From: a virus
DNA length: 37,282 nucleotides
Virus record (IMG/VR): IMGVR_UViG_3300010883_000142
Span: 1 to 37,282 of that record
Strand: one strand, 5' to 3'
The stretch's first letter is position 1. Each line of letters starts with the position of its first letter. The notes below the pieces were generated by a model. That model searched no databases and had not been told where the DNA came from. It was given only the letters and a program-made list of their open reading frames with translations. The translations under genes and the position numbers were made by a program. Of the stretch, positions 8,931 through 36,504 are shown piece by piece.

Positions 8931-9036
8931 AACCCCGTGTGCCCCCTTTGCACATCTGAACGGGTAACCTGCAGGTTGCGAGAAGTGTCTGGGCTGGGTA
9001 ATCCAGCTGACTCAGGCTTCTCCTTCCTGTGGGGTT
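8931..9036 (+). ncRNA. Candidate structured RNA, cloverleaf-like
   Basis: The 129-base gap after the exported protein gene folds by eye into a closed multibranch structure. P1 is AACCCC (8931-8936) with GGGGTT (9031-9036). P2 is TGTGC/GCACA (8938-8942/8950-8954). P3 is GTAACC/GGTTGC around a TGCA loop (8964-8979). P4 is GAGAAG/CTTCTC (8980-8985/9017-9022), stacked on CTG/CAG and GCTGG/CCAGC. It lacks tRNA features (no T-arm consensus, no CCA end). It could be a terminator/processing element or a translational control structure ahead of the gene at 9058. Folding was done by eye only. Confidence 0.4.
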
Positions 9037-9057
9037 AGTCCGAAAGGCGGACCTATT
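9034..9057 (+). promoter_or_regulatory. Palindromic element copy 1
   Basis: GTTAGTCCG, AAAGG, CGGAC, CTATT: an imperfect palindrome (5-bp stem, 5-base loop, plus outer A-T pairs around one bulge). It ends directly at the ATG of the next gene with no clear Shine-Dalgarno between. Three relatives occur at 18991, 30613 and 36481. Relative to its gene this copy is in the opposite orientation to the other three. Confidence 0.7.
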
Positions 9058-9369
9058 ATGGCATATGAAATAAACTTTCTCGGTGATAACCACGCCACCG
9101 TGCACGGGGTCTGTGACGGGACAGCTGACACGGCTCTGGCTACGTTGCCACCGAATCCTTGGAATGATGCGCAGATTGCGTGTATGTCCGAGGGCGAAGG
9201 TGTTTATGTTGAGGATGACGGCTCTGTTGCACCTCGTCAAAGCGGTGCGTTGCAGGCCACGATCGATGTTCGTTCTTCCGTAGCGGGAGGAAAGTTCTTC
9301 GTTGTCCACTGTTTCAAACTTGGCTCGGGCGAAGGCAACGTCCGGGATCACAGTGCAATAACTACGTAA
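9058..9369 (+). CDS. Small probable virion protein
   Basis: A 103-residue soluble protein with mainly beta-type sequence and no membrane segment. It lies between the capsid block and the connector genes, where podophages often encode head decoration or closure proteins. Its start abuts palindrome copy 1 and its stop overlaps the next ATG (TAATG). No canonical ribosome site precedes ATG 9058, so initiation may depend on the upstream structure. No family recognised. Confidence 0.7.
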   Translation: MAYEINFLGDNHATVHGVCDGTADTALATLPPNPWNDAQIACMSEGEGVYVEDDGSVAPRQSGALQATIDVRSSVAGGKFFVVHCFKLGSGEGNVRDHSAITT

Positions 9370-9650
9370 TGCCAGGCAAATCCATCCATATGCTTTCGTG
9401 TGCGCGAATGTTCTACACGGAAGAAACAGCAAAAGAGCTGGCTTCAGCCTATGACATACAGGCCGAGTCGATTCTTACAGCCTCTGCGATCCTATTCGTT
9501 GTTGGGACTAAGCGTGCGTTTGAAGGCATATGGATGGATGTTCGTGACGGTTATCACTTTATGCGAGGCGAATATGTTGAAGGTCGAATGCTGTATACAC
9601 CCTCATGCAAGATGGGCGCTCAGCAAGCTGAAAGAGAAGAAGCAATATAA
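9369..9650 (+). CDS. Hypothetical protein (93 aa)
   Basis: A small protein with one moderately hydrophobic stretch (ESILTASAILFVVGTKRAF, ~33-51), which may be a buried helix and not a true membrane segment. It starts in a TAATG overlap with the previous gene and its last 77 bases overlap the next gene in another frame. Position suggests a head-completion role, but no family is recognised. Confidence 0.65.
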   Translation: MPGKSIHMLSCARMFYTEETAKELASAYDIQAESILTASAILFVVGTKRAFEGIWMDVRDGYHFMRGEYVEGRMLYTPSCKMGAQQAEREEAI

Positions 9651-10242
9651 GTCACCTGATGACAGGCTTGTGCAGCAAGCGTTGGGGCTGACGACTGAGT
9701 TTACTGATCATGCATTAGATAACTCACATCCGTTTGTTTCACAGCGCTTGCTCCAGAAGCTACATCAGATTGATGAGCGATTGTTTCTCTGCTGGGAATT
9801 ACAGCACTACTTTGACCATCGTTGGCACGTCAAGTATCTCGACACGCACATTGAGTCAGGGACACCAATTGAAACTTCGATCGTCATTTTACAGTGGCCC
9901 TATGCGGTGCAGATACATGAAACTGCAGCATATCTGCCCTTTGATGGAGAAGCTCTTGCTACTGTTCGTCGGCTTATGCATCAAATACGTAATGGAACAC
10001 AGTCTGCGATAATTGAAGGTGTCCACGTCCATCAGGAAAAGAAAGAGACTGATCAGATTGCTGACCGCGAGGACATGGCAACAGAGATGGACAAGGAGCA
10101 ACGCAGATTGCAGGAACGTATATCAGGGAAAAGAAACATCTCTGATCCTGGATGGGAGCGTGGTGTGGGACAGAATGATGATGGCACGTATTATACGGAC
10201 GGGCCTGGTGCCCATTCACATACACGAACGAAGGCTATATAA
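9574..10242 (+). CDS. Hypothetical structural-region protein (222 aa)
   Basis: A soluble helical protein: N-terminal basic segment (LSKLKEKKQYKS), a middle with HYFDHRWHVKYLD, and a polar C-terminus rich in His, Gly and Lys (HSHTRTKAI). The frame is open further upstream, but ATG 9574 has GAGG five bases before it, and the upstream part lies under the previous gene. Its stop overlaps the connector start as TAATG. In podophages a gene here often encodes a small head-tail or accessory virion protein; no specific family is recognised. Confidence 0.65.
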   Translation: MLKVECCIHPHARWALSKLKEKKQYKSPDDRLVQQALGLTTEFTDHALDNSHPFVSQRLLQKLHQIDERLFLCWELQHYFDHRWHVKYLDTHIESGTPIETSIVILQWPYAVQIHETAAYLPFDGEALATVRRLMHQIRNGTQSAIIEGVHVHQEKKETDQIADREDMATEMDKEQRRLQERISGKRNISDPGWERGVGQNDDGTYYTDGPGAHSHTRTKAI

Positions 10243-11087
10243 TGCCCGCTATTCCGCTGATTGAAATGATTGAAAATGTCCGCGATATCGTGGATGATGA
10301 GAATAAGAACACGCATACAGATGCGGAGATTCTCAGCTATATTAACGCAGCGGTCGGGTTCTACGACGGTATCCTTGCGGAGTTTGCTGAGAAAGCATTG
10401 ATGCAGTATCGGGATGTGTCTCACGATGGTAGTGAGTTGCAGGACGTGATGCCGTATCTGCCCCGTATTGTGGGTGTTGAGCGCACGAGTAACACGCCTC
10501 GAACAGAAACCATACCACTTCCACGAGGATTTGATGACAGGTTATCATTCGTTGGCGTCAACGCAGGAACCCAAGAAGGTTTCTACTACGTCCAAAACAA
10601 CCAACTTGCAGTCGTTCCACAGCAATCAAGTGGCACCGATCGTGTGTGGATGGTCTTACGAACGCCAGAGCTACATTACGGGACGCTTACAGCAGGGGCA
10701 ACAACCACTAGCCTCGTATTTGGAGCGACACCCACAAAGGGCAATCTAGTCAAAGTAGACGATGCGTATAACTTCATACCGTTCATGCTGACAGTTTCAC
10801 GTGAATTAGGTGTAATTGATGATTTTACCTCATCGACACTTACTTCCACGTTACAACAGACACTATTGAATGACCCTGCTTCTGCTGCATACAGCATGTT
10901 ACCGCCCATCGACCCCGAGTTTCACTGGTTATACATATGGGATGCTGTGATCAAATGTCGTATTCGCACACATGAAAATACGATGGAACCTGCATCAGAG
11001 CGTCAGCGGTTAGAATCTCTCCTCATGCAACGTATCCGGAAAAATCAATCACAGCGTTCGCGCTATTACACAAGGCACGGCTGGTAA
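10242..11087 (+). CDS. Probable head-tail connector / adaptor protein
   Basis: A 281-residue protein beginning with helical MIENVRDIVDDENKNTHTDAEILSYINAAVGFY, which resembles the start of podophage adaptor proteins that ring the portal. A beta-rich centre (~100-170) and a helical C-terminus with YIWDAVIKCRIRTHENTMEPASERQRLESLL follow. It sits just before the beta-propeller protein and is joined at both ends by TAATG overlaps, matching the usual order portal, capsid, adaptor, stabilisation protein. The call is by pattern and position. Confidence 0.6.
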   Translation: MPAIPLIEMIENVRDIVDDENKNTHTDAEILSYINAAVGFYDGILAEFAEKALMQYRDVSHDGSELQDVMPYLPRIVGVERTSNTPRTETIPLPRGFDDRLSFVGVNAGTQEGFYYVQNNQLAVVPQQSSGTDRVWMVLRTPELHYGTLTAGATTTSLVFGATPTKGNLVKVDDAYNFIPFMLTVSRELGVIDDFTSSTLTSTLQQTLLNDPASAAYSMLPPIDPEFHWLYIWDAVIKCRIRTHENTMEPASERQRLESLLMQRIRKNQSQRSRYYTRHGW

Positions 11088-16403: not shown

Positions 16404-16945
16404 ATCTACGCGATCCATTAACTATGATCGGAGGCCGTGTTGAGGATGATGGCAACACGCTGGTGCGTGCTATCACGGAGACAGGCCTCGAACACGAATC
16501 ACAGCAGCATGAACGCGCATATACATGGACGTCAATCCCATATGATGGGGCTGCGCAGGACACAATCATCTGTGTGCGTAATGACAGCAAGACGCTGATC
16601 CTGCATCCTCAGTGGATAGTTATCAATAACGGTGCTACAGCCAGTGAGTATCAGATTTACATCGTGACAGCTGCATTTACAATCGCAGGCACTGTGATCA
16701 CACCGCTCAATATGAATACGAAGGGTGCTGTGAATCCTGATATCTCTGCGTATGCGGATGAGACTGGTAATACAGCCCAGGGTAGAATGTGGGAACGCAC
16801 GTATATGCCTGTTGACTCTCGTAGATTTTTTGATCTGCGTGGGCTTGATCTCAACCAGGATCATGCGATTGGTGTGGATATGGTTGCAGATGGTGGTGGA
16901 GAGCAGTCCATTACAATCTGTGCTCACCACGGACCGGTGCATTAA
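16400..16945 (+). CDS. Probable minor virion protein (181 aa)
   Basis: A beta-rich soluble protein (TIICVRNDSKTLILHPQWIVINNGATASEYQIYIV...) with regularly alternating polar and hydrophobic residues, ending SITICAHHGPVH. It begins in an ATGA overlap. Together with the next two genes it looks like a set of small beta-sandwich virion proteins, perhaps appendage or head-surface components. No specific family is recognised. Confidence 0.65.
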   Translation: MNLRDPLTMIGGRVEDDGNTLVRAITETGLEHESQQHERAYTWTSIPYDGAAQDTIICVRNDSKTLILHPQWIVINNGATASEYQIYIVTAAFTIAGTVITPLNMNTKGAVNPDISAYADETGNTAQGRMWERTYMPVDSRRFFDLRGLDLNQDHAIGVDMVADGGGEQSITICAHHGPVH

Positions 16946-18838: not shown

Positions 18839-18995
18839 GAAAGAAAGTAAGGGGATCGGCACACGTGTCGCGGGGGCTGAGGTTCAGTATGAAGAAGAGC
18901 CTCGAGATTATCAGCCACTGATATCACACCGATCTGCGAAGACGAAATCGCAGCCGAAAGATGAGCGAAGCCAGCGTCGTAGACCTATTTATTAG
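18822..18995 (+). CDS. Small charged hypothetical protein (57 aa)
   Basis: Translates as MNKRTEKESKGIGTRVAGAE, then VQYEEEPRDYQPL..., ending DERSQRRRPIY. It is highly charged, probably disordered, and has no membrane segment. TAGG precedes ATG 18822. Its stop codon lies inside palindrome copy 2. No family recognised. Confidence 0.55.
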   Translation: MNKRTEKESKGIGTRVAGAEVQYEEEPRDYQPLISHRSAKTKSQPKDERSQRRRPIY

Positions 18996-19014
18996 GTCCG
19001 GAAATCGGACTAAC
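18991..19014 (+). promoter_or_regulatory. Palindromic element copy 2
   Basis: ATTAGGTCCG, GAAAT, CGGAC, TAAC: reversed relative to copy 1 on the plus strand. GTCCG/CGGAC pair around a five-base loop, and TTA/TAA pair outside a one-base bulge. It begins inside the stop codon of the preceding small gene and is followed by TAAGGAG and ATG 19029. There is no T-run, so it is not a standard terminator. Confidence 0.7.
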
Positions 19015-19028: not shown

Positions 19029-19301
19029 ATGACTGTTCAAGTGGTTACGGGCACAGCGCTGTTGAGCGCAGGAGCATTTGTAATAAATACACCGATTCGA
19101 CTTCTGGGTGCTCGGATGCATCACACCACAGACGCGAATGCGGTGATTCTGCTGGACGCATCTGACGGTAAGAATGTCACCACGCTGAAGGTGACGGATG
19201 AACAAGAAACAGATGAAACATGGTTCCCGAATGGTGGGTTCCCGTGCAAGGATGTTCACGTCACAGCGAGTGCCGGATCTGTTTACATTTACTTTGAATA
19301 G
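19029..19301 (+). CDS. Small probable virion protein (90 aa)
   Basis: A beta-rich small protein (VQVVTGTALLSAGAFVINTPIRLLGARMHH..., ending DVHVTASAGSVYIYFE), like the small beta-sandwich proteins at 16.4-17.7 kb. TAAGGAGAA gives a strong ribosome site, and palindrome copy 2 lies 14 bases before the start. It opens the internal-protein gene block. No family recognised. Confidence 0.7.
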   Translation: MTVQVVTGTALLSAGAFVINTPIRLLGARMHHTTDANAVILLDASDGKNVTTLKVTDEQETDETWFPNGGFPCKDVHVTASAGSVYIYFE

Positions 19302-19309: not shown

Positions 19310-20866
19310 ATGCCTGAGGAAGATTTCAGAGACCCAGCGCGACGTAGGCTCCTAGACATTGCGGATAATGCGTCGGCAGAAAAAGGTGAGATTCAGACAC
19401 AGTTACCTGATGTATCCGTGCCGAGTCAGTTCGACACGCCCATCCAGTCTACGGGGATACGCCAGGACGTGCTAGCTGGTGTGCAAGGCAATTTCGATCG
19501 TAACATCGCACAGATTCAGGAGAATGCTTTGCAGAACCGGCGGTTTAGGGCCGGTTCAACCTCCAATGCCGAACTCAACGAGGCGCGTTCATCACGTAAT
19601 CAAGCAATCGGTGCATTGGGGCAGGTTGAGCTGCAGAGTCAGGGTCAGGTATTAGGCGCGTTGGGTGGGCTAGCTCAGGTTGAGCAGTCTGGTCAGGAAG
19701 CTCGTAGCACACAAACAGATTTACTGACGTTCGAGCAACAGAAGGTCGATATTATGGCCGGTGGGCTGGCAATTGATCAGGGGCGTTTGACACTTGATCG
19801 AGACAAGCTGGGTGAAACAGCACGGCAGTTCGATCTATCTTCTGTGGATCAGCGAGCACAGTTCCATGCTACGATCGCAGCCACAGCTGAACAGAATGGT
19901 TTGGATCGTGCGCAGACTGCCGAACTTGCTGCGGCCTCACTCATGGAAGGTGCTCGACAATTTGATGTGGCTGATGCAACACAGCGCCAACTGGCTGGTG
20001 ACGCACTGGCAGAAGGTGCGCGACAGTTTGGATTGACACAGGAACAGACACGTGAGCTGGCTGATCAATCGTTGGCTGAATCGGCACGCCAGTTTGATCA
20101 GTCAGATGCCACACAACGTGATCACTTTACGCGTGAGATTGATGAGCGAGCACGTCAATTCGGCCTCGATCAAGATCAGACAAAAGAACTTGCTGCGAAT
20201 GCTCTCAGTGAAGGTGGACGACAGTTCGACCTCTCGCAAGAGCAAGATTTTGCACTTCATCTATCTAACATTGCAGAATCGTCACGACAATTTGAGCTCT
20301 CACAGGAGCAGACATTAACACTTGCACGTGAGGCCACGACTGAAGCTGCGCGTCAATTTGATCTCAGTTCAGGTCAGGACGCAGATCAATTCTCACAGAA
20401 CATCATCGAGACTGCACGACAGTTTGACTTCTCGCAGGAACAAGCACGTGATCTCGCGATTGAAAGTCTTGCAGCTAACGAACGTGTGGCGAACTCGCAG
20501 CTCAATGTTCAGCATCTAGGGAACATGATCTCACTGTTGACAGATGGGACGCAGGCACTCACAGCAGAAGATGGTAATAAGATCATCTCGGCCGCATTTG
20601 CAATGGGTGACATGGAAGCGTCATTAAACATATCACCTACTGCTGATCAGGCTGTAAATAACGTGCTTGAGATTTCTAGTCAATCATCTCCAGAAGCGCA
20701 GATTACACGTGACCTGGTTACGCGTCCAGATATATGGGGACTTGATCCTCATGAAGTCAGTGCGCTGTCAGATGAAGAACTCACGCAGTATGAGAACTTA
20801 GATTTCGATGGAGATGGAACTGTCAGTATGTCTGACTATATTATCTATTCTGCACGAGGAGGTTGA
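19310..20866 (+). CDS. Repeat-containing internal virion protein with dockerin-like calcium loop
   Basis: A 518-residue, Gln/Ala/Glu-rich helical protein. Residues ~171-390 are ten tandem 22-residue repeats around ARQFD/G-L-x-Q-E-Q-T-x-E-L-A-x-x-x-L-x-E-G/S, alternating between two sub-types (RQFD.SDATQR and RQFGL.QEQT), so the larger unit is 44 residues. The C-terminus carries DFDGDGTVSMSDYI (~500-513), an EF-hand/dockerin type calcium loop with Asp at positions 1, 3, 5 and 12. A long repetitive helical protein next to the lysozyme and giant ejection protein suggests an internal head or ejected protein spanning the envelope. The role is inferred from context. Confidence 0.7.
   Translation: MPEEDFRDPARRRLLDIADNASAEKGEIQTQLPDVSVPSQFDTPIQSTGIRQDVLAGVQGNFDRNIAQIQENALQNRRFRAGSTSNAELNEARSSRNQAIGALGQVELQSQGQVLGALGGLAQVEQSGQEARSTQTDLLTFEQQKVDIMAGGLAIDQGRLTLDRDKLGETARQFDLSSVDQRAQFHATIAATAEQNGLDRAQTAELAAASLMEGARQFDVADATQRQLAGDALAEGARQFGLTQEQTRELADQSLAESARQFDQSDATQRDHFTREIDERARQFGLDQDQTKELAANALSEGGRQFDLSQEQDFALHLSNIAESSRQFELSQEQTLTLAREATTEAARQFDLSSGQDADQFSQNIIETARQFDFSQEQARDLAIESLAANERVANSQLNVQHLGNMISLLTDGTQALTAEDGNKIISAAFAMGDMEASLNISPTADQAVNNVLEISSQSSPEAQITRDLVTRPDIWGLDPHEVSALSDEELTQYENLDFDGDGTVSMSDYIIYSARGG
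19820..20479 (+). repeat. Ten tandem 66-bp coding repeats
   Basis: Each 66-bp unit encodes 22 residues beginning (A/S/G)RQF. Units differ at the DNA level, so the repeat is old or under divergent codon choice. Sub-types alternate, giving a 132-bp super-repeat. The register is kept perfectly for ten units, which argues for a rod or solenoid of fixed pitch. Confidence 0.85.
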
Positions 20867-21266: not shown

Positions 21267-22399
21267 TGGCTAGATCAGATGTTCTTCGTGGAATTGGGGC
21301 CGGCCTGAGTGCGGTCGGTCAGGGGATGAGTGATATACAATCTCAGCGGGATAACCAAGAGAATCTTGATGCTGATCGTAAACTTCAAGAGCGCATGACA
21401 GTTGTTGCTGAGAAGAATCAAAAAGGTGAGGACGCATGGAAAAGTTTTCAATCTGACTTCATGGTTCAAGGTCGGATGATTGAGATCACGGAGAAGAATC
21501 GTGATTTCTACGAACGAAATCTTGATCGCACACTCGCGGCTATGCGTGATGCGAACCAGGCGAATCTACAAGTATCACTCGAAGGGATGCGTCAGAGTGG
21601 TGCTGGTGATCGTCAGGGTAAGGGCTTCGCGCATGACAATGAAATGGCTGACAAAGCCAATCAAGCTAAAGAAATGCTAATGGAGAACGAGGCTACGATG
21701 GCCCTGTTTAGTCGGGCGCGTGCCGCGGGAATCGACATGGCAGGTGAAAAGGTCAAAGCCATGATTACTACAATGGCTAATCTCACACCTGATTCTGAGG
21801 GTTACGAAGAGAAGAAGATTCAGTTCGATAAGATGCAGAAAGAATTTTCAGATATACTGAATGAAACGGTGGACTTTGGTAAGAAAAATGCTGATGGTAG
21901 TATGGATCTACCAGACGCTGTGCCGGTTATGCCGGTAGCACTCACGACTGATGAAGGTGAGCCACGTGAAGTTCTGGCAATCGGGCAAGACGTGTTTGAA
22001 GGATTAACGACGCAATTTGAAAAGAATCCTGGAGCTGTTGATGCATGGGGTATGATTAAAGTTGCTGCTGGTGAAATGACCGAGGATGAGTGGGGAAAGA
22101 TTCGTCGTAAGCTACAGCCAACAGATGCGATCACGATCATTACAGGAACTGCTGCGAATATTCTCGGCACACTTGCGAAGGCGGGAGATTCCATCCTGGC
22201 TAAGATGTTAGAATCTGCAATGGGCCGTAAGAAGTTTACACCACCGTCAAATGGTGCGCCCGCATCTCCGCAGGCACCTCCGCCACGAACACCACAAGGT
22301 GGCCAGCGTCCACAGACTGCTGGTGGGCCGCCAGATCCTGCACCTAATCAGTCAGCTGCTGCTTCTCCACGATCATCTGGTGGAAGGTATAGTTTCTAA
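21266..22399 (+). CDS. Internal virion protein candidate (377 aa)
   Basis: A largely helical soluble protein. The N-terminus MARSDVLRGIGAGLSAVGQGMSD is weakly hydrophobic, residues ~25-200 are charged coiled-coil-like, a globular part follows at ~210-310, and the tail is Pro/Ala/Gly-rich (310-377). It is coupled by TAATG at both ends and sits between a small hydrophobic-helix protein and the lysozyme. Podophages typically have two to three such ejection proteins here. Assignment rests on order and composition. Confidence 0.65.
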   Translation: MARSDVLRGIGAGLSAVGQGMSDIQSQRDNQENLDADRKLQERMTVVAEKNQKGEDAWKSFQSDFMVQGRMIEITEKNRDFYERNLDRTLAAMRDANQANLQVSLEGMRQSGAGDRQGKGFAHDNEMADKANQAKEMLMENEATMALFSRARAAGIDMAGEKVKAMITTMANLTPDSEGYEEKKIQFDKMQKEFSDILNETVDFGKKNADGSMDLPDAVPVMPVALTTDEGEPREVLAIGQDVFEGLTTQFEKNPGAVDAWGMIKVAAGEMTEDEWGKIRRKLQPTDAITIITGTAANILGTLAKAGDSILAKMLESAMGRKKFTPPSNGAPASPQAPPPRTPQGGQRPQTAGGPPDPAPNQSAAASPRSSGGRYSF

Positions 22400-26935: not shown

Positions 26936-28213
26936 TCATATCTCATCGAGGTCATCAAACTTTGGTGTGTCTGATCCCATGTAACGCATGGTCCGATAGA
27001 AGGTCCATATCTCCCCGCTTGTAGTTTTCCTCTGCTGCATCTCAATCATCCCGGTTGTTCTAAGAGCCACGATAGCTTGTTGGATGCTTTCAGGGTCCAT
27101 GTAATTGAAGAGTCGTCTGGCGAGGGCGCGAGCAGTAATTCCATTGGCTCCGCCATGTGTCTTGATAGTGCTGAGAACACGCATAGTATTTCGCTGTGAG
27201 GGGTCGGCTTGGGCTCCAGCAAGCGCAACATGCATGTTTGATCTGACCCCTTTGAGCATCTGAACGGCAGCTTGAATGTGTGGTGTGTGGATTTCCCATT
27301 CAGCACCAGCTGATAACGAGAAGACCATCGCCAATTTAAGGATGTGATCGTGCTCGCGTTCGTAGAAACCAGACTCTTGCTCAAGCTCACTTCCTTCCTC
27401 GCGATTTCCATACCATTCGTCGAAGAACTTGCCTGACTCCTCTGTAAATTTCATTTGACCACGCTTCAGGCTGATCTGCCGTAGATCCTCCACCAATGAG
27501 TCTCTCAGCCGTATGAGCGCATCCGTTACAACAGGCCTCGCTACCTTCAGCTTCGGCTTGGCACCATACACGAGAATTGTGCGTGACACAAATCCCTCCC
27601 CGAATATTGCAGGTGTCATATTTTCCTGCATCCATTTCGGGGTAGTAGCTCCAAGCAAAGACACATGCACATCTTTCAACCTGTCCACCCCAGAGTTCTT
27701 CGTTATATGATCGTGCTCGTCTGGACAATCGTATAGCTCCGTGAGTAAATCAGGCATTCCCATGGACTGCATACCCTTGCTGAGGAACGCACCGAGTTCT
27801 GGTGAGAATAGCATGTGGGGCCGGTAGATGTTGACAGGCTCGCTCCCCGCAATAACTGTGGGATCTTCTACTCTCTTGTTGAGCGATCGTATAAGTGCCT
27901 CTGGGTATATCTTCCCAGGCACAAACTGTCGATCCAGCCGGTCGCCAAGCGCGGCACGAACAACTTTCCTGGCTGTGCCAACACTCGCGCCTTTTCGACA
28001 TGCTCCCGAGCCAGCCACTAAAACGATATAATGATTCGGATATAATTTGTAAAATCCCTGATCTAACCATACGTCACGACCAACAGCAAAACCCACAGTA
28101 GCAACAGCACACCATGTATGAAAGATGTCCGGCGATTCCTGGCCAGCGGTGAACCGTAAGTATTTTTCAATATAGCTCTCATCTGCCACGACCTCCCCCT
28201 TATCCACACTCAT
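26936..28213 (-). CDS. DUF3987-type P-loop helicase/primase-helicase candidate
   Basis: A 425-residue protein. IVLVAGSGACRKGASVGTA (~64-82) is a P-loop of the kind seen in DUF3987 proteins, where the G-K-T/S is relaxed. VHVSLLGATTPKWMQENM (~184-201) is the usual Walker B/sensor region of that family. The C-terminal ~100 residues look like a winged-helix (ITARALARRLFNYMDPESIQQAIVALRTTGMIEM). It is the last gene of the replication arm, after the polymerase. The start is uncertain: GTG 28240, ATG 28213 and a GTG just after GGGGGAGG are all possible; I used ATG 28213, which overlaps the polymerase gene by 14 bases. Confidence 0.7.
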   Translation of the reverse strand: MSVDKGEVVADESYIEKYLRFTAGQESPDIFHTWCAVATVGFAVGRDVWLDQGFYKLYPNHYIVLVAGSGACRKGASVGTARKVVRAALGDRLDRQFVPGKIYPEALIRSLNKRVEDPTVIAGSEPVNIYRPHMLFSPELGAFLSKGMQSMGMPDLLTELYDCPDEHDHITKNSGVDRLKDVHVSLLGATTPKWMQENMTPAIFGEGFVSRTILVYGAKPKLKVARPVVTDALIRLRDSLVEDLRQISLKRGQMKFTEESGKFFDEWYGNREEGSELEQESGFYEREHDHILKLAMVFSLSAGAEWEIHTPHIQAAVQMLKGVRSNMHVALAGAQADPSQRNTMRVLSTIKTHGGANGITARALARRLFNYMDPESIQQAIVALRTTGMIEMQQRKTTSGEIWTFYRTMRYMGSDTPKFDDLDEI

Positions 28214-30611
28214 ACCAGTTAATACCGCTGGAGAATTCACAGGGTATACGTAGTGTCAATCCCTGACATTCCATAGGTAAAGGCTGTTCAAATTCCTCGA
28301 TCACCATTTCACGTATCACGTCCAGATGCTCCGTGCGACATTGGCCCATCACACTATCATGAACCTGACCTAACACCATTGCGATATCTAAGTCGAACCG
28401 ATCTTCTAACCTGATCATTACTTTATTGAGGGCATCGCCAACAGTGCCTTGCGGAATAAAAGCATATGCCTCTCTGAAAGTTCCGTCATCAAGGCGCCCG
28501 AAAAATATGCGCTTTCTGCCGAAACAATTTTCGAGAGTGCGGGTCCGTAAGACTTGCTGCTTTTTGAGCTCCCGCCAATTAACCACGGAGTGTAACGTGT
28601 TATTAAGATTGTTATAGCAAGATTGAGCGTTCTGCTGAGTGAAGGGCATTTTTGGCATATAGTTGTTGACAAGTTCCACCAGTTTGCCAGGTGCCATTCC
28701 GTAGTTCCAGGCGTGACCAACTCGTTTAGCAAGATCGCGGATGTCTCCAACCACATCTTTAGGTGCGAGGCCTGTGATAATGTTCCCGATAGTTTCATGA
28801 TACATGATTCGGGACTCACTCTTTCCATAGAGACGGTGATTTGTAAGAACGTCCAGCATAACTTCATCACCGGATTCCCACGCCACGACATATGATTCCG
28901 CACTGGCCATGTCACATTGCCAGAAAGTCCAGCCAGGATCAGGGATGTAGAGGTGGCGAACGACCTTTGGCTGATTCTGTAAGTTACCACCACGTCGATA
29001 GGCATTCGACGAAGATGACAATCTACCGGTCTCAGTTCCCCCGGCTGCATCAGCTTTATGGGCCGACCCTGCGATATTGTAGCTTGTTCGCACGCGACCG
29101 TCAGGGTCTTCGAGGGGTTTAAGATAAGTGCTGATGAGCTTAGCTTTCTCTCTAACTGTAAGAACTGCATCAAAGAATTCAGCATGCTTTGGAAACTTTC
29201 GTCGAAGGGTGGCAAGCTGTGTCTGCCCCAGTGATGACTTTTGTGATCTCCTGTCGACTTGTTTCGGTAGATTGAGGGTGCCATGCACAAACTCTTTCAT
29301 TTGTTTTGGTGAGTTTACGTTGAACTCGTTACCCACGATCTCATTGACCTTAGCACGTGCCGTAGCCAGCTCACCCTCGAAGGTATCTTTGAGAGTTTTG
29401 CGGGCCTCCTTATCAAGAAGTATGCCCCTCCGTTGGATATTAGCAAGAGCTCGTGAGAGGGGGTGGTAATGGCTGACGTAAAAATCCCAGAGTTTGAAAT
29501 GTGTTAGCTCCTTGCAGAGGGTTTCCCATGATTGATACGTAACGGCACAGTCGAGTGCGTTGTATTCCCAGTGGGCCAAATTGTAATTGACATCGTTTGC
29601 TTCTTTGGCCATCTGTTTGAAAAATGGTTCGTCCGAATACACAGACGCCAAGAAAGCCAATCCATGTGGGAGCTCGGAATATATGCAATGATGCATAAGC
29701 ATGGTGTCGTAGACTGCACCGCGAACTTGCACTCCCCAGACATCAGCCAGGAGGGTGGTGTCATAGATGCCATTTTGTGTGATCTTTGCAACAGGCGTAT
29801 CGAGCAGATCGCGGAGAGCTTCGACAAGAGTTGCCTCTTCAAAGGGAGAGAATTGTCCTGTAAAAGGTATGGAGATTGCTCGTGTAGAGGACGTTGCAAG
29901 TCCAAAGACGGTGATAGTTTCATTGAAGGTTTCGATGTCGAATGCGAAGATTTGACCTGCGGCTTTGCATGCTGCGATGAATTGTAAAAAATATTCTGCG
30001 GATTTGACTGTATCCATATCTTGTCGAGAGCGGAGCGATCGTCTGACGTGTCGTCCATAAAGATACAAATCCTTTTTTGCTGATTCGAATTGTCTCGGGC
30101 CTGCTTCCCAATATCTTCGTAGCTTCTTTGCATCCTGTTTACATATGACGTCAAGTGTCCAGTCTTTAGCAATGGCTCCTGGTGCATACATACAGAACAC
30201 ATCGTATTTATCTTGGACCACAAGGGAACCTCTATACAAGCCGATCCCCTTATGACCCACGACAGTTTCCATTGCCAGGTTGCCTAAGCATATGACTAGA
30301 TCACGCGGGTGTTCATGCACCCACTTCAGGCATTCTTCTTTTTCCTCCGCCACATCAACTCCAATAGATGGTAGCTGATGTAGCATAGAGTTAGGAGGCC
30401 TGAGAGGTATGACAGTGCCAACCAAACATTCACTACGAGTGATGCCAGCTCGAAATAGTAAGTCATCGAACAGCTTCTTTCCGGCCCATCCAACATACGG
30501 ACGGCCTGCTTTAGATGCCGCATCGTCAGGGAACTCACCTAATACTACGATACGTGCATCCCGTGGCCCATCTACTCTGACCCTGCGCGGGTCGTCAAAT
30601 GCTATTGGCAT
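28200..30611 (-). CDS. polA: DNA polymerase A fused to an N-terminal UDG-like domain
   Basis: An 803-residue fusion. Residues ~18-155 resemble family-4 uracil-DNA glycosylase (GEFP at 25-28, GRPYVGWAG 36-44, RPPN 71-74), but the usual His-Pro motif is replaced by YAPGA (142-146) and the iron-sulphur cysteines are missing, so it may be inactive. The 3'-5' exonuclease has DIE (Asp225, Glu227), Asn280/Asp284 and Tyr350/Asp354. The polymerase has TETGRLSSSS (526-535), motif A Asp567, O-helix RDLAKRVGHAWNYG (625-638) and motif C VHDS (750-753). His633 aligns with E. coli Phe762. This is the phage replicase. Palindrome copy 3 lies one base before the ATG. Confidence 0.9.
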   Translation of the reverse strand: MPIAFDDPRRVRVDGPRDARIVVLGEFPDDAASKAGRPYVGWAGKKLFDDLLFRAGITRSECLVGTVIPLRPPNSMLHQLPSIGVDVAEEKEECLKWVHEHPRDLVICLGNLAMETVVGHKGIGLYRGSLVVQDKYDVFCMYAPGAIAKDWTLDVICKQDAKKLRRYWEAGPRQFESAKKDLYLYGRHVRRSLRSRQDMDTVKSAEYFLQFIAACKAAGQIFAFDIETFNETITVFGLATSSTRAISIPFTGQFSPFEEATLVEALRDLLDTPVAKITQNGIYDTTLLADVWGVQVRGAVYDTMLMHHCIYSELPHGLAFLASVYSDEPFFKQMAKEANDVNYNLAHWEYNALDCAVTYQSWETLCKELTHFKLWDFYVSHYHPLSRALANIQRRGILLDKEARKTLKDTFEGELATARAKVNEIVGNEFNVNSPKQMKEFVHGTLNLPKQVDRRSQKSSLGQTQLATLRRKFPKHAEFFDAVLTVREKAKLISTYLKPLEDPDGRVRTSYNIAGSAHKADAAGGTETGRLSSSSNAYRRGGNLQNQPKVVRHLYIPDPGWTFWQCDMASAESYVVAWESGDEVMLDVLTNHRLYGKSESRIMYHETIGNIITGLAPKDVVGDIRDLAKRVGHAWNYGMAPGKLVELVNNYMPKMPFTQQNAQSCYNNLNNTLHSVVNWRELKKQQVLRTRTLENCFGRKRIFFGRLDDGTFREAYAFIPQGTVGDALNKVMIRLEDRFDLDIAMVLGQVHDSVMGQCRTEHLDVIREMVIEEFEQPLPMECQGLTLRIPCEFSSGINWYECG

Positions 30612-30612: not shown

Positions 30613-30636
30613 GTTAGTTCGCTTTCCGGACCTATT
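30613..30636 (-). promoter_or_regulatory. Palindromic element copy 3, abutting the polymerase start
   Basis: On the plus strand it reads GTTAGTTCG, CTTTC, CGGAC, CTATT. It ends one base from the polymerase ATG on the minus strand, with no recognisable Shine-Dalgarno in between. In the mRNA (minus) sense the stem has one C-A mismatch; in the plus sense it is a T-G wobble. That suggests recognition as DNA, or tolerance for a mismatch in RNA. Confidence 0.7.
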
Positions 30637-30662: not shown

Positions 30663-30664
30663 TG

Positions 30665-31422: not shown

Positions 31423-31579
31423 GTTTACCTCCTGTCTTGAGGGCGTCACGTAATCCACTCAATGCAAGTGCATAGTCACTCAGTGGATGTGGTGGCGTTG
31501 CGTGCAAGAGCATCATTTGTGTCGCATTCCGTAGCGTCTGTAGCTGTGCCTCAAGTTCCTCGTATGTGGGCTTTACCAT
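31415..31579 (-). CDS. Small coiled-coil protein (54 aa)
   Basis: Starts MVKPTYEELEAQLQTLRNAT, with a heptad-like helix followed by a Pro/Leu-rich end. GAGGGTGAAG precedes ATG 31579, which overlaps the stop of the ParB-methyltransferase gene; the 3' end overlaps the next start by 8 bases. No family recognised. The EELEAQLQTLR helix is typical of small phage proteins that dimerise. Confidence 0.6.
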   Translation of the reverse strand: MVKPTYEELEAQLQTLRNATQMMLLHATPPHPLSDYALALSGLRDALKTGGKHD

Positions 31580-33024
31580 AGCTTCACCCTCTTGATACGA
31601 TCGACAGCCTCTACCCCACACGTCTCCAAGATGGAAACATCCCATTCTGATATGCGATCTCGAGCTGTATGAACTGCTTCAATGTCAGCGTCAAAACCTT
31701 GAACCTTCATCCACCGCTTACGGGCCGCGAGGATATGCGACCCGCTACCTGAGAATGGGTCGAGAAATCTACCGTCTGGTTCTACTGACACGTTTAACAT
31801 GTGGTCAATTAATTGGAGTGGTTTCTGGAATCTGTGCTCTTTCTGTGTTCCGAATATTGGTTTGACCTCAAGGACATCAGAACGAGGAACTGCACCCTCT
31901 CGTTCACGTTTTCCAGTTGTCGCGAATATAATAGCTTCATGGTTAAGGGGCCAGTGCGTGAATGGAGGTTTATATCCCTGAACAGGTTTGCTCCAGATGA
32001 GTGGAATTCCTCGAACCGTAAAGCCAGCGCGATCCATAATGTCTGCGATGGAGTAGAAGTTCGTCTTACGATTCCAAGCAAGCCCGCAGAACAAATATAT
32101 ATGAGAGCCCGGTCGCAATACGCGATACATTTCCGGTATGGTATCTTCCAGGAGCGCAAATACCCTGTCCTCATTGTCGTCAAAATTCCGATCTGCATAG
32201 ATGGCGTATCCCAGCCCCTTTTCACCAGCCGATCCTTCGAGCGTTCCATACGGTGGATCAGTGATGATAAGGTCCACACTGTCGGTCTCCAGACTTTTAA
32301 GCCCTTCGAGTGCCTCCACATGACGAACCTCATCTCGTTTGGTCACGATGGTTGGATCAGCTTTGAGTGCCTCATCCTCTTCGACACGTCGCTCATCTGC
32401 TGCTACCTTCTTTGCACCTCTGTTCACCATCTGATTGATCTCACGCTTTACCATGTCCTTATTCTGGCCTGCCTTTTTATATATCTCGGCACGCTTTTCT
32501 TCTGTCAGTAGGGACATGACCTCTGCTATCCGTATGTCCTCACTTACTTGTGTCTTTTTCAACCCGACCACGTTACCCGTATCCTCTGCTGTCCATCGTG
32601 GTTTGGCTGGATCAGCAGGCCCCTTCATGTTAGCGGGATTATTTGCGCTTTGAATTTTGTGGAATTTTAGCAACGCTTCGTTGTATTCACGAGGCGTAAG
32701 CGTCTTGCGATGGAGATTTTCTTCTAGCTCCATTTCAAAACGCTTTTCTTCGCTGATCTCACCACGCTGATCAATGAAATTCTCAGCGATGTCCCAGTCA
32801 ATAGGACACTCATCGTTAGGTTTTGTTTTATCTACATCACGCAGGAGCTTCAAGGCTGTGAGCCGACGCTCGCCTGCGATAAGATTCATCTCACCATCTA
32901 CTACGATTTTATGAACCGGCCCGCCAGTTGCTCTGATGGAAGAGGCTAGCTTATGGATGGGATACTCATCGTTGCCCATCTCCTCACGCTGTCTATCATT
33001 AATCTTTATGTCGTCTAATACCAC
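31573..33024 (-). CDS. ParB-like nuclease/regulator fused to a DNA methyltransferase
   Basis: A 483-residue fusion. The N-terminal ParB domain has LIAGERRLTALKLL (48-61, with the GERR box) and a helix-turn-helix region at ~145-175. The C-terminal N6-adenine/N4-cytosine methyltransferase has IITDPPYG (253-260, catalytic DPPY) and LDPFSGSGS (421-429, SAM-binding), in the beta-class order of catalytic motif first. I chose GTG 33024 because GGAGG lies five bases before it; the ATG at 33036 has no ribosome site. Likely roles are modification of phage DNA against host restriction, with ParB supplying specificity or nicking. Confidence 0.85.
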   Translation of the reverse strand: MVLDDIKINDRQREEMGNDEYPIHKLASSIRATGGPVHKIVVDGEMNLIAGERRLTALKLLRDVDKTKPNDECPIDWDIAENFIDQRGEISEEKRFEMELEENLHRKTLTPREYNEALLKFHKIQSANNPANMKGPADPAKPRWTAEDTGNVVGLKKTQVSEDIRIAEVMSLLTEEKRAEIYKKAGQNKDMVKREINQMVNRGAKKVAADERRVEEDEALKADPTIVTKRDEVRHVEALEGLKSLETDSVDLIITDPPYGTLEGSAGEKGLGYAIYADRNFDDNEDRVFALLEDTIPEMYRVLRPGSHIYLFCGLAWNRKTNFYSIADIMDRAGFTVRGIPLIWSKPVQGYKPPFTHWPLNHEAIIFATTGKREREGAVPRSDVLEVKPIFGTQKEHRFQKPLQLIDHMLNVSVEPDGRFLDPFSGSGSHILAARKRWMKVQGFDADIEAVHTARDRISEWDVSILETCGVEAVDRIKRVKLW

Positions 33025-33049
33025 TGGAACCTCCATTAGAGTTATTGTC

Positions 33050-33508: not shown

Positions 33509-33940
33509 TTACACCGCGTCGATCTGTGCAACACACTTCTTCACGTTCGTCTGATCCTTACCCGTGTTCGGGTTGACCGTGATTGACGTTTCAACATTCA
33601 GCTCCAGGCCCTTCAGAGAGTTGACGAAATCAGGTGTGATCACGCCTCCCTCCCAACGAACGCCACAGGCTGTGCAGAAATCTGTGAACATTCCCAGGCC
33701 ACGTCCCTCGATGGGCGTGTTGAAGAACAGGGTGTAGTCATTGTCATCAGGGTCCACACAGTCGATGGTCTTGAGACGCCATCCCAGATACTGTGCCTTC
33801 GGTCCCTGCTTATGCTGAACGCTGTCGATCCGTGCGCGATACACGTCAGGCACGAGAACCTTGTTCGCCTTGTCAACAGCTTCGTCGAAATCACCTACTT
33901 CGATTGGGTCGAATGTTGCGTCTGAGGTTTCTTCAGCCAT
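33509..33940 (-). CDS. DUF669-like single-strand-binding/recombination accessory protein
   Basis: A 143-residue acidic protein. Residues ~28-60 (VPDVYRARIDSVQHKQGPKAQYLGWRLKTIDCVD) and ~75-95 (NTPIEGRGLGMFTDFCTACGVRW) follow the pattern of DUF669-type phage proteins, often encoded beside RecA-like or Sak-type ATPases, as here. A probable role is ssDNA binding in recombination or replication. AGGAGC precedes ATG 33940. Confidence 0.6.
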   Translation of the reverse strand: MAEETSDATFDPIEVGDFDEAVDKANKVLVPDVYRARIDSVQHKQGPKAQYLGWRLKTIDCVDPDDNDYTLFFNTPIEGRGLGMFTDFCTACGVRWEGGVITPDFVNSLKGLELNVETSITVNPNTGKDQTNVKKCVAQIDAV

Positions 33941-33986
33941 GTTAATTGCTCCTGGTAGTGAGATGTGAATGGCTTGTTACGTGATA

Positions 33987-34802: not shown

Positions 34803-34941
34803 TTTCTACCTCCTTTTCCATTGCGTCATCACGCAGTTGGTCGAATTTTGAATCCCAGTATTCATCTTCTGCGAGCTGACGTGCTTCGTAATCCTCTTCA
34901 TCAAACACATCCTCATCTTGCGGATCGATGCTCCAGCTCAT
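34603..34941 (-). CDS. Acidic hypothetical protein overlapping the Sak4-like gene
   Basis: A 112-residue protein: residues 1-45 are very acidic (SIDPQDEDVFDEEDYEARQLAEDEYWD) and clearly coding; residues ~47-112 are encoded by bases that also encode the ATPase in another frame, an overlap of 200 bases. Its ATG overlaps the previous stop (ATGA). The ATPase ribosome site (AAGGAGG) lies within it. The C-terminal part may be little constrained. Confidence 0.55.
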   Translation of the reverse strand: MSWSIDPQDEDVFDEEDYEARQLAEDEYWDSKFDQLRDDAMEKEVEIACNRSEESGAARQESDKVLGEIEDTARRGIDDREDHLVFDTSQRLESMWRREPENSGGRFRSERR

Positions 34942-35147
34942 GACTCGTCCCCGTGTGGTCTATCTTCAAACGACAGGGAAATGTTGGCATCCATCACGTT
35001 CTTACCGTAGTCATTTTTGGTGAATGCGATGCGCTGTCCCTTTGCAAACAGGGACGGATACTCTGATGAGATTTTCTGTGACAGATCCTCAGCTGCATTG
35101 TTCAGGATCGTATTCAAATGCGCGAGCCTACGTGCGGTCAGTTTCAT
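34938..35147 (-). CDS. Hypothetical protein (69 aa)
   Basis: A small alpha/beta protein (MKLTARRLAHLNTILNNAAE, later RIAFTKNDYGKNVMDANISLSF). GGAGGGCTC precedes ATG 35147, and its stop overlaps the next ATG. It lies between the Cas4-like nuclease and the ATPase. No family recognised; a recombination accessory role is only suggested by position. Confidence 0.65.
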   Translation of the reverse strand: MKLTARRLAHLNTILNNAAEDLSQKISSEYPSLFAKGQRIAFTKNDYGKNVMDANISLSFEDRPHGDES

Positions 35148-35158
35148 GAGCCCTCCGT

Positions 35159-36196
35159 TTATGTATCGTCATCCCTGTTGAGTGGGTCCCACACCTCAGT
35201 CTCAAACAGCTGTTCTGCCAGCGTATCACGAGTCTCGCGAGGCTGGGAACAGAGATCGTAGAAATTACATATACGATTAAACTTCTGACACGCGTCACTG
35301 TCCTGACGTGGCAGGCGACCTGTCTCATCCGCTGTTGCTATCTTGCGACGGACCTCTTTAACATGGTCAACCATATCATCCCACCACTCGTCCAGGTATG
35401 GCTTCTGTGCGAGCGTGGTGTCCCGGAAGAATTTCTTGTTATCATTATACTTCGTCTTTGTCTTGAGAATCATGTCAAAGTAGAAGTAATCTCCCGCCTC
35501 TTCAGCCCAGGGTGAGTGGCGTTTGAGCCAATACATGTAACCTCTGAACTGTTGAGATATTTTGAAAGATGAGATGAGAGCGCCAGATAACATCGAAGCG
35601 GTCTTGTGATCCATTCCAACGACCTGCCCTGATCGCTTATCACGAAAAACTTTGTCGACCACCCCGCAATACACAGGTCCACGCAGACGCCCTGTGCCGG
35701 AACAAAGGACACAGTCCTGTCGCGGAAGAGGCTCTCCAGGTATAGGCGTTGGGCTGCCCATCCACTGTTCCACGTAACCTGCACCGTTACATTCCTCACA
35801 GTCATGTTCTGGGTCCAATCCAATATCCATCGCGAAGTATTTCTCAATCCCGAGGACTTCCATGTTCTTGATCGTCGGTTCCCACTGTTTCCAGTAGTCG
35901 ATGATTGAATCGCAACCCATCTTGACCGTGTGCTTTGCAGCTGTCGTATCCGTGTGCTCGAACTCCTCAAAAATCGGAGTGTATCCACGCTGGAATACCG
36001 TCGCTGCTTCTACCGGATCGTGTGTCTTATACATGGTATCCATAGCATGATGATACCAGATACCGTATTCGAGTGCCGGTGTCATTGCACCTGCGTTCTG
36101 CACGTAGTGCCTATGATGCCTCCAGTAACCCTTCAGGTCACATAGACGCCACGTCTGCAGCTTATGATTGTCATACCTTTCGATTGTGGTTGACAC
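35159..36196 (-). CDS. Cas4/RecB-like PD-(D/E)XK nuclease with zinc-finger insertion
   Basis: A 345-residue nuclease. GIWYHH (~45-50) is the conserved His motif, GVVDKVF (Asp181) and GMDHKT (Asp196, Lys198) are the PD-(D/E)XK residues, and QQFRGYMYW (Gln216, Tyr220) is the RecB QxxxY motif. Cys19, Cys303, Cys310 and Cys316 match the four Fe-S cysteines of Cas4/AddB-type nucleases. Between the His motif and Asp181 lies an extra zinc finger, CEEC-NGAG and CVLC-SGTG (133-170), like DnaJ's CxxCxGxG. I chose GTG 36196 because AGGAGG lies five bases before it. Likely 5'-3' exonuclease for recombination. Confidence 0.85.
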   Translation of the reverse strand: MSTTIERYDNHKLQTWRLCDLKGYWRHHRHYVQNAGAMTPALEYGIWYHHAMDTMYKTHDPVEAATVFQRGYTPIFEEFEHTDTTAAKHTVKMGCDSIIDYWKQWEPTIKNMEVLGIEKYFAMDIGLDPEHDCEECNGAGYVEQWMGSPTPIPGEPLPRQDCVLCSGTGRLRGPVYCGVVDKVFRDKRSGQVVGMDHKTASMLSGALISSFKISQQFRGYMYWLKRHSPWAEEAGDYFYFDMILKTKTKYNDNKKFFRDTTLAQKPYLDEWWDDMVDHVKEVRRKIATADETGRLPRQDSDACQKFNRICNFYDLCSQPRETRDTLAEQLFETEVWDPLNRDDDT

Positions 36197-36464
36197 GAGG
36201 CCCTCCTGTTCGTTGGTCAATGATTCCATGACGGCCATTAAATTCAGCCAACTCAGCGGGCGTTGCTTTCGATGTGTCGATGTGCCAACAGTCGCTGAGG
36301 TAGAACCACTCACGACCTGTGTTATCACATCTAAAACACACTCGACCCGCATCGATCGGATTCTCATCGAGCTGCATGATTGGCATAGATAGTGGTGTGC
36401 CCCCGCACCTTGAACACGCTTTCGCGATCAGTATATCACTATCATGTGCTGCTATAAGTGGCAT
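36171..36464 (-). CDS. Zinc-ribbon protein (97 aa)
   Basis: CSRCGGTP (~18-25) and CFRCDNTGRE (~43-52) are two CxxC pairs, consistent with a zinc ribbon. The rest is soluble and polar (SDCWHIDTSKATPAELAEFNGRHG). AAAGGAGGG precedes ATG 36464, with palindrome copy 4 sixteen bases further upstream. It overlaps the nuclease start, so the two are probably co-translated. It may bind nucleic acid alongside the nuclease. Confidence 0.7.
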   Translation of the reverse strand: MPLIAAHDSDILIAKACSRCGGTPLSMPIMQLDENPIDAGRVCFRCDNTGREWFYLSDCWHIDTSKATPAELAEFNGRHGIIDQRTGGPRVNHNRKV

Positions 36465-36480
36465 TACGAGCCCTCCTTTT

Positions 36481-36504
36481 GTTAGTCCGCTAACCGAACT
36501 CTTT
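36481..36504 (-). promoter_or_regulatory. Palindromic element copy 4
   Basis: On the plus strand: GTTAGTCCG, CTAAC, CGAAC, TCTTT. In the minus-strand transcript it forms AGTTCG/CGGACT around a five-base loop with one U.G pair. It overlaps the end of the small gene at 36490 and is followed by AGGAGG and ATG 36464. It is the most diverged copy. Confidence 0.6.

Follow-up and report, generated by a model that had tools for sequence, protein, structure and literature searches.

Dispersed palindromes in a phage genome and its relatives as candidate two-fold DNA sites of a ParB-methyltransferase fusion protein

The window, which is the whole analysed stretch of 37,282 nucleotides of the virus record IMGVR_UViG_3300010883_000142, contained five copies of a palindrome and a gene for a protein combining ParB-like and DNA methyltransferase domains. 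The strand of each palindrome was defined by the orientation of AGGTCCG..CGGACTAAC. The features considered were the following.

976..998, minus strand: palindrome copy 5, within the terS reading frame 559-1266, with three mismatches to the motif; overlooked in the earlier note
9034..9057, minus strand: palindrome copy 1, directly followed by the ATG of the gene 9058-9369
18991..19014, plus strand: palindrome copy 2, 14 nt 5' of the ATG at 19029, with an RBS in between
28200..30611, minus strand: UDG-exonuclease-polA fusion (DNA polymerase), downstream of copy 3
30613..30636, minus strand: palindrome copy 3, 1 nt before the DNA polymerase ATG (30611)
31573..33036, minus strand: 487-aa ParB-HTH-DNA methyltransferase fusion, the candidate trans-acting partner
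31639..32343, minus strand: N6/N4 DNA methyltransferase domain of the fusion, residues 232-466, with DPPY (260-263) and FSGSG; CcrM Z 25.2
32470..32700, minus strand: helix-turn-helix (HTH) DNA-binding domain of the fusion, residues 113-189 approximately, helices 150-157 and 161-175
32704..33036, minus strand: ParB NTP-clamp domain of the fusion, residues 1-111, with GERR (55-58) and ENxxR (106-110)
36481..36504, minus strand: palindrome copy 4, 16 nt before the ATG at 36464 of a 97-aa gene that precedes the Cas4-like exonuclease
36542..36937, minus strand: ribbon-helix-helix-like protein, the partner proposed in the earlier note; no Pfam match at E 0.05

An earlier note on this DNA had described four copies at 9034-9057, 18991-19014, 30613-30636 and 36481-36504, with distances to the ATG of 0, 14, 1 and 16 bases, and all of these values were confirmed. 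The shared motif GTTAGTYCG-N5-CGRAC had exactly four matches within the window. The description of each copy as lying just upstream of a start codon held for copies 1 to 4 but not for the fifth copy at 976-998. This copy was located inside the terminase small subunit reading frame, so not every copy stands in front of a start codon. With respect to AATAGGTCCG-N5-CGGACTAAC, copies 2, 3 and 4 faced their gene, as did the clear copy of a twin contig, and copies 1 and 5 faced away. A matrix of all five copies scored them with 23-27 bits and the next-best place in the window with 7.8 bits, a result that is by itself circular because the scored copies are in the matrix. In leave-one-out matrices, each copy reached 17.8-25.2 bits and exceeded the best match in 40 shuffled windows, with narrow margins over the shuffle maxima for the copies at 976 (21.0 versus 19.5 bits) and 36481 (17.8 versus 16.8 bits). 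A tRNA T-arm was ruled out as the identity of the 976 copy, since no tRNA was found. An Rfam search gave no match at E values up to 1.

The twin contig L027 (IMGVR_UViG_3300036814_001041) was 99.8-100% identical to the window over the shared parts and had 6.76 kb that the window lacks. This additional part held a clear extra palindrome copy at 9445-9467 with 21.4 bits. A weaker L027 copy at 8390-8412 had 14.6 bits, below the maximum of 18.1 bits from 200 shuffles. Across viral contigs, the exact motif was present in eight stretches: two twin stretches, five with one common conserved flank and a single one. Conservation of the palindrome sequence itself was rejected, as the relaxed motif GTYCGNNNNNCGRAC was present in only two of nine polymerase relatives, at two places per record at most. 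The sequence that copies 1 and 2 have recurred exactly at 14 places in bacterial and archaeal genomes, one per returned stretch, compared to a rough chance estimate of about 120; given these single occurrences, it is no evident host element. The expectation that relatives carry the motif at matching gene boundaries failed for the sequence, but a relative with a 48% identical polymerase had its own palindrome at two of these boundaries. In the relative G008, such a palindrome was located at the orthologous boundary of copy 1 (9034..9057), and the counterpart of copy 2 lay 13 nt ahead of the syntenic gene. Of the five sites of the window, only two stood at a gene boundary shared with G008.

Many related phages held a palindrome family of their own, with 4-16 copies of about 23 bp that differed in sequence and were similar in architecture. 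The window palindrome is real and is one of a class of dispersed sites found among a group of phages from the environment, of which each phage has its own version. G008 had nine copies of TAAAnTTTCA-NNN-TGAAAnTTTA and G009 had six copies of TAAATTTCGGAAACCGAAATTTA. Further full-length records, G023 and G025 among them, had families of 5-16 copies. In a prediction check, four records were listed that the ParB-methylase covered to 80% or more; two of them were newly examined and both had palindrome copies. Desulfofustis phage LS06-2018-MD01 held nine copies of TATGTCCCAAATTGGGACTAA (at most four in shuffles), which is close to the window's site. Vibrio phage VS-ABTNL-3, also among the polymerase-list relatives, held four (at most three in shuffles). 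A first scan of short loci placed 38 of 83 above their three shuffles, 14 of them by at least two, and a scan of 88 sequences placed 28 above shuffles, 13 of these with just two copies. At looser settings, controls without the ParB-methylase also exceeded shuffles, namely G014 (five copies, mostly clustered) and Shocker (six).

The sites were strongly biased towards intergenic positions, with 122 of 180 outside called genes compared to 18.4 expected. Tandem junctions held 92 sites (12.9 expected) and convergent junctions 18 (2.7 expected), an about equal enrichment, and 12 sites were located at divergent junctions. In 10 of 21 family-bearing sequences, a palindrome stood at a fixed place within the polymerase gene instead, the UDG/exo boundary. 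Compared with randomly drawn gene junctions, the sites were more evenly spaced (combined p 2e-9 over 17 genomes), with individual significance in seven of the 17.

Covariation between the two halves within a copy was detected in none of 21 families at p < 0.05, so the palindromes look like two-fold-symmetric DNA sites rather than RNA hairpins. In an earlier family set, the halves were less alike within a copy than between copies in 15 of 19 cases. A two-fold palindrome with independently varying half-sites is a feature of parS/KorB-operator-like sites and was found here. In the G008 element, the fifth position is variable; it formed Watson-Crick pairs in none of the nine copies and one G.T pair. 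RNA folding of copies 1, 2 and 3 was no better than that of shuffles (z 0.15, -0.55 and 0.37), and copies 4 and 5 folded better (z -2.3 and -3.8). A terminator scan of half of the window, with three copies inside, included none of them among the 11 terminator-like sites listed. Neither compensating changes in the stem nor a U-tract, the marks of an RNA hairpin or intrinsic terminator, were found at the palindromes. The former argument that the stem is kept through a G.T pair was not strand-consistent, copy 3 giving a C.A mismatch in the mRNA sense. From the functions offered earlier, operators for a phage regulator were retained in the form of dyadic sites at the DNA level. The hairpin-promoter, RNA-processing and translational readings were unsupported, given the absent covariation, the shuffle-like folding of three of five copies and the enrichment at convergent junctions, about as strong as at tandem ones.

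The candidate partner matched the profiles of Spo0J (E 1e-27) and Noc (E 2e-24), the latter match covering the DNA-binding domain and running through position 197. Pfam ParB_N remained below threshold in the window's own protein. G55, R58, E106, N107 and R110 were invariant in 30 of 30 and 47 of 47 sequences. A separate N-terminal model was compared, since structural alignment of the full model listed the methylase only. It aligned with Myxococcus ParB (Z 11.2 over residues 2-110), Noc (Z 10.8 over residues 1-214) and KorB (Z 10.2, rmsd 6.8, 177 residues, over residues 1-220), and Caulobacter ParB, too, aligned along most of the length of the model. Isolated DNA-bound ParB-family domains aligned weakly to residues 91-231, and their Z of 4.6-5.2 was no better than that of unrelated HTH proteins, e.g. 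sigma region 4. The GERR (C) and ENxxR (P) motifs and the central HTH of a ParB-family clamp were thus both present. The C-terminal dimerisation domain of canonical ParB was not found; residues 232-466 form a DNA methyltransferase instead, and the protein is therefore not a canonical ParB. A ParA partner (PF13614) was detected in none of 20 records, some of them incomplete, and in all 14 control genomes. Nucleotide binding by the phage ParB-methylase would not be assured; 17 of 28 ParB-fold proteins tested bound no nucleotide (PMC12704722).

The ParB-methylase was present in 73 of 88 sequences of this phage group, some of which overlap, and none of the 18 full-length records in which a matrix defined a family lacked it. 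An automated procedure called dispersed families in 21 of 27 genomes with the ParB-methylase and in one of 10 without it (p 0.0003). This single genome was T7, whose repeat presumably reads like T7's own promoter. Six ParB-methylase genomes remained without a call: MW202489, G015, G017, MelJY34, VS-ABTNL-3 and the window, which had a value of three versus a null of three. In G013 and G030, what was called may be coding or GC-rich repeats. The co-occurrence partly reflects shared descent, because the ParB-methylase is nearly universal in the phage group. Comparisons of an 18-residue recognition segment favoured a site specificity that follows the HTH, with descent as a confounder: G018 and G038, both with ATTAT-type sites, were 89% alike in this segment and 53% in the methylase domain, the values for G018 and MW202489 (TTTAC type) were 39% and 71%, and pairs with the same core exceeded pairs with different cores across 11 genomes (p 0.029). 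G022, with ATTAT-like sites and an ATTAC-like helix, did not fit. The methylase domain followed palindrome distance about as closely as the HTH did (Spearman 0.76 and 0.77; partial values 0.42 and 0.44), and a Mantel test did not separate the two as correlates.

Other proteins of the window were considered as partners. The ribbon-helix-helix protein named as a candidate in the earlier note is unlikely in this role, as only the window and its twin carry it among the 88 sequences. Fifteen replication-arm proteins were traced, and those with wide conservation were large replication enzymes and the ParB-methylase; the genes for exonuclease, Sak4 and polymerase were conserved as widely as that for the ParB-methylase. 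The small replication-arm proteins occurred in at most 16 of 88 sequences, a count that covers the small early genes within the analysed flanks. No repressor family and no RNA polymerase was found among the PHROGs matches of 28 window proteins, and a T7-like promoter reading of the palindrome was rejected on the latter result. GGACTAACTA presumably resembles T7 promoters. The annotation of MF497422 includes a 'putative RNA polymerase'.

On balance, and with considerable doubt, it is probable that the palindromes are dispersed two-fold sites bound by the phage's ParB-family protein, in which a methyltransferase replaces the dimerisation domain. They are proposed as parS/KorB-operator-like loading sites for this putative clamp. 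The parS and Noc-binding sites of bacterial ParB and Noc are also two-fold sites of a ParB-type protein with the same N-domain and HTH. These systems differ from the window, where no ParA was found, a methylase takes the place of the C-terminal dimerisation domain and sites occur genome-wide. KorB is a ParB-family CTPase clamp that reads the RK2 operators (OB), which are likewise short sites of a ParB-family protein and are used for silencing near and far from promoters (PMC11790492). Unlike the window protein, KorB has no methylase and acts with KorA, and OB has 16 bp compared to about 23 bp here, where sites differ between phages (PMC11790492). Stoperators of cluster A mycobacteriophages are similar in their many copies across the phage genome, but they are asymmetric 13-bp sites of the immunity repressor, whereas the present sites are palindromic (PMC3203893). 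The SAS/ESAS repeats of cluster K also stand beside start codons, ESAS with imperfect 17-bp inverted repeats, but SAS is a 13-mer without symmetry whose position depends on start codons, to which the present sites are not tied (PMC3203893). The SAS sequence GGGATAGGAGCCC, which belongs just upstream of starts, gave one match with two mismatches in the window, with 0.46 expected.

Operators of another dimeric transcription regulator of the phage, a repressor or an activator, which would co-evolve with its sites and serve many operons independently of the ParB-methylase, are conceivable but unlikely. Such a regulator would suit sites that cluster at gene boundaries, adjoin start codons in copies 1-4 and have their own sequences per lineage, and many window genes are without known function; however, convergent junctions were enriched about as much as tandem ones, 10 of 21 sequences had sites inside the polymerase gene, and small replication-arm proteins did not exceed 16 of 88. 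Improbable are sites of a host protein with a nucleoid, partition or regulatory function (e.g. ParB, Noc or LexA) and with a sequence that follows the host: the G008 half-sites TTTCA..TGAAA presumably resemble bacterial parS, but the sequence of copies 1 and 2 occurred exactly at 14 places across the genome collection, a single one in each returned stretch, and G008 and G009, from one metagenome (3300025286), differ in their inner boxes. Equally doubtful are dispersed replication, recombination or packaging sites, used for initiation or modification by another phage enzyme. The even genome-wide spacing and the matching conservation of exonuclease, Sak4 and polymerase would agree with this function, but these enzyme families are not known to include a palindrome-specific dimeric DNA binder. 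RNA hairpins with a role in termination, RNA processing or translational control are very improbable: palindromes near stops and starts and the folding of copies 4 and 5 speak for them, but compensating changes in none of 21 families, the unpaired fifth position in G008, shuffle-like folding of copies 1-3, the absence of the three scanned copies from the terminator-like sites and the sites at divergent junctions speak against.

If the ParB-methylase binds the palindromes, homology to Spo0J, Noc and KorB suggests that a dimer would read both half-sites through the HTH. With less certainty, nucleotide binding might bring the N-terminal domains together as a closed clamp, which would then leave the site by sliding, as in ParB and KorB. 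Sites a few kb apart could allow the protein to reach the whole genome, and phage DNA might be methylated or marked, or transcription silenced or insulated over distance. A tentative extension, possible but not favoured, is genome marking, in which the methylase-fused clamp would load at evenly spaced private palindromes, slide and coat or methylate its own DNA. Self-DNA would then be recognised by the palindrome array and not by the short target of the methylase alone. New in this reading would be the site array and a delivery through sliding, as modification directed to specific sites by phage ParB-like proteins was suggested before (PMC6536676).

Thirty-six phage methylases that carry a ParB domain at the N-terminus, including those of Paracoccus phages, were described in a study of the ParB-TLS locus that cites Iyer et al. 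2013, together with the earlier suggestion that ParB-like proteins steer modification machinery to specific sites of the virus genome during packaging (PMC6536676). The Paracoccus genes adjoin terminase genes, unlike here, and the passages on these loci give no site sequences (PMC6536676). Palindromes of the window type would be the sites to which such proteins steer modification, and the suggestion would become testable. Fusions of a ParB-CTPase fold with an N6_N4-methylase are frequent in phages and have the same architecture as the window protein (PMC12704722). The main text of that study does not contain 'palindrom', and its passages on them name no sites; these fusions, whose role was left open there, gain candidate DNA sites. 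About 20 natural pairs of site and HTH are available for testing specificity. If true, a sliding methylase would be a new way to direct a DNA-modifying enzyme across a whole genome.

The four palindromes of the earlier note (9034-9057, 18991-19014, 30613-30636 and 36481-36504) were re-examined in the sequence and are present as described. A matrix made from the sites themselves scored five places in the window at 23-27 bits (976, 9034, 18992, 30613 and 36481), the next-best place reaching 7.8 bits. Left out in turn, every site still exceeded the best of 40 shuffles, by a narrow margin for 976 and 36481. The window is one complete IMG/VR record. Its only near relative found was the twin contig L027 (IMGVR_UViG_3300036814_001041; 38,002 bases), a circular permutation of the window with 99.8-100% identity over shared parts. 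The twin brings 6.76 kb more, which by arithmetic implies a genome of about 44 kb. Copies beyond the original four were the following.

976-998, window: fifth palindrome copy, within the terminase-small-subunit (terS) frame
L027 9445-9467, twin: clear extra copy
L027 8390-8412, twin: weaker extra copy

A second open frame, 1004-1312 (+), which overlaps the 3' portion of the terS frame and stops at the following start, is a possible gene within a gene. Several imperfect repeats spaced 66 nt at 19946-20457, in a 518-aa protein, are probably a 22-residue repeat. In the twin, a stretch absent from the window holds a DUF7192 protein adjoining an AAA (dynein-related) ATPase (L027 5593-6429 and 6429-7343, minus strand).

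Relatives were gathered via a two-sequence polymerase alignment as the best 80 of 140 in viral contigs, among which the closest polymerase had 48% identity. A repeat search that used no window motif gave each of the two closest relatives its own palindrome family: TAAAnTTTCA-NNN-TGAAAnTTTA in G008 (nine copies) and TAAATTTCGGAAACCGAAATTTA in G009 (six copies). Scanned loci were mostly pieces up to 22 kb; 38 of 83 held a family above three shuffles, with an excess of two or more copies in 14. For full records, seeds were picked from the locus scans and extended with matrices, yielding 5-16 copies in each of 18 full-length records, the window among them, and 4-6 in each of three shorter loci. 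Families included GCG.ATTACA....TGTAAT.CGC in G034 and G031 (13-14 copies), ATTACTCcgGAGTAAT in G039 (12), CCTAGGtCA.a.t.TGaCCTAGG in G020 (13) and CTtTGATACA...TGTATCAaAG in G046 (13), with further families in G023 (6) and G025 (8). Some family-bearing records are close relatives (G031/G034, G016/G018, L086/L087 and G020/L047). The sequence is not conserved among relatives; the kind of element is. In L090, part of G039, the element at 2267-2312 is lengthened into an almost perfect nested palindrome of 46 bp. Its outer boxes (GTTATT/AATAAC) stand 12 bp from the inner ones (ATTAC/GTAAT), an arrangement that hints at four contacts.

Conservation at the same gene boundaries, set earlier as a test of the motif, did not hold for its sequence, and did hold in G008 for that phage's own palindromes at two boundaries: a homologous gene (103/96 aa) follows both window copy 1 and G008 32273, and a syntenic one (90/98 aa) follows both window copy 2 and G008 24413. 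G008 and G009 share a site at the convergent junction of the primase-like and large internal-protein genes, where the palindrome contains the stop codons of both. A palindrome also lay within the polymerase gene in 10 of 21 palindrome-bearing sequences, 516-540 nt from the match start and close to the uracil-glycosylase/exonuclease domain boundary, each phage using its own version.

G008 16660-16682 (L033): convergent-junction palindrome, TAAA..TTTA giving both stops
G009 21921-21943 (L034): convergent-junction palindrome, likewise
28200-30611 (-), window: DNA polymerase fusion; uracil-DNA-glycosylase superfamily 15-167, 3'-5' exonuclease 206-369, polA 403-801

With genes called by a simple, crude script, 122 of 180 sites in 18 genomes lay outside genes against 18.4 expected, and 58 within. 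Convergent junctions held 18 sites (2.7 expected), divergent 12 (2.8) and tandem 92 (12.9). These positions speak against a promoter-only or terminator-only role. Spacing was more even than that of random gene junctions (combined p 2e-9, 17 genomes), significant alone in seven (G000, G047, G020, G046, G040, G048 and MW202489) and non-significant in ten. The palindromes probably act as DNA, and an RNA role is disfavoured. If an RNA stem were selected, halves within one copy should be more alike than halves across copies; such resemblance was significant in 0 of 21 families. The variable fifth position in G008 formed a Watson-Crick pair in 0 of 9 copies, with one G.T. RNA folding was better than shuffles for window copies 4 and 5 and no better for copies 1-3.

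Fifteen replication-arm proteins of the window were traced in a set of 88 sequences that includes some overlapping or duplicate records. The polymerase was present in 86, Sak4 in 80, the exonuclease in 77, the ParB-methylase (31573-33036, minus strand) in 73 and the primase-like protein in 62; two small proteins occurred in 16 and 8, and the remaining eight in 1 or 2 each. The ribbon-helix-helix protein (36542-36937, minus strand), formerly the partner candidate, was confined to the window and twin. The ParB-methylase is the sole widely conserved traced protein from a family known to read palindromes. Its N-terminal profile matched Spo0J (1e-27) and Noc (2e-24), the latter through the DNA-binding domain. 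The predicted N-terminal model (pLDDT 86, pTM 0.71) aligned with Caulobacter ParB (Z 10.9, 161 residues, rmsd 4.3), Noc (Z 10.8, 173 residues, rmsd 4.7) and KorB (Z 10.2, 177 residues, rmsd 6.8). DNA-bound domains aligned weakly (Spo0J Z 5.2, KorB 4.8, ParB 4.7, Noc 4.6), with scores like those of unrelated HTH proteins. An N6/N4 DNA methylase makes up residues 232-466 (CcrM Z 25.2, 231 residues, rmsd 3.0). A search of 20 records turned up no ParA.

When each genome was compared with ten shuffles of itself by an automated finder, a dispersed palindrome family was called in 21 of the 27 that have a ParB-methylase and in 1 of the 10 that lack it (p 0.0003). The genomes are not independent, because they were picked as relatives or by ParB-methylase. 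L030, with a weak ParB match only (E 5e-13), was scored as lacking it. ParB-methylase genomes without a call were the window, MW202489, G015, G017, Mel-JY34 and VS-ABTNL-3; of the positive calls, those in G013 and G030 are possibly spurious. The sole call among genomes without ParB-methylase was T7, and under looser settings G014 and Shocker, also without it, likewise exceeded shuffles. Four phage records matched at least 80% of the ParB-methylase. Two had come up before: MW202489, with a family (six copies by matrix), and Mel-JY34, with none. The two new ones, under settings other than the finder's, were VS-ABTNL-3 (four copies) and Desulfofustis phage LS06-2018-MD01 (nine copies of TATGTCCCAAATTGGGACTAA). 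The protein of the last (L184 10342-11634) has DFPY in place of the window's DPPY, and its methylase is therefore possibly altered or inactive, although the phage retains its nine palindromes. Within the longer-HTH group, two phages with ATTAT half-sites, G018 and G038, shared 89% identity in the recognition segment and 53% in the methylase, against 39% and 71% for G018 and MW202489 (TTTAC). Same-core pairs had higher residual identity (p 0.029, 11 genomes), G022 was a misfit, and a Mantel test did not separate HTH and methylase.

In PMC12704722, ParB-fold/N6_N4-methylase fusions in phages are surveyed and their role is left open; 'palindrom' is absent from its main text. PMC6536676 describes 36 ParB-methylases in Paracoccus phages and relays the suggestion of Iyer et al. 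2013 that ParB-like proteins of phages guide the modification of DNA to particular virus-genome sites. The idea of site-directed modification is therefore not new, and the addition here is concrete candidate sites; no published sites for phage ParB-methylases were found in the literature searched, with subscription papers and preprints outside its scope. The palindromes resemble parS and KorB operators and are candidate sites for a ParB-methylase. We infer that the palindromes, whose families, symmetry, placement and association with the ParB-methylase were observed directly, are read by this protein. Because the sites avoid genes, occupy every junction kind and are evenly spaced, a clamp-loading array fits better than a promoter set. 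KorB is described in PMC11790492 as reaching promoters up to 1.5 kb away. More speculatively, and by analogy with KorB, the ParB-methylase might load and slide in an NTP-dependent manner, the outcome of which could be methylation, silencing or insulation.
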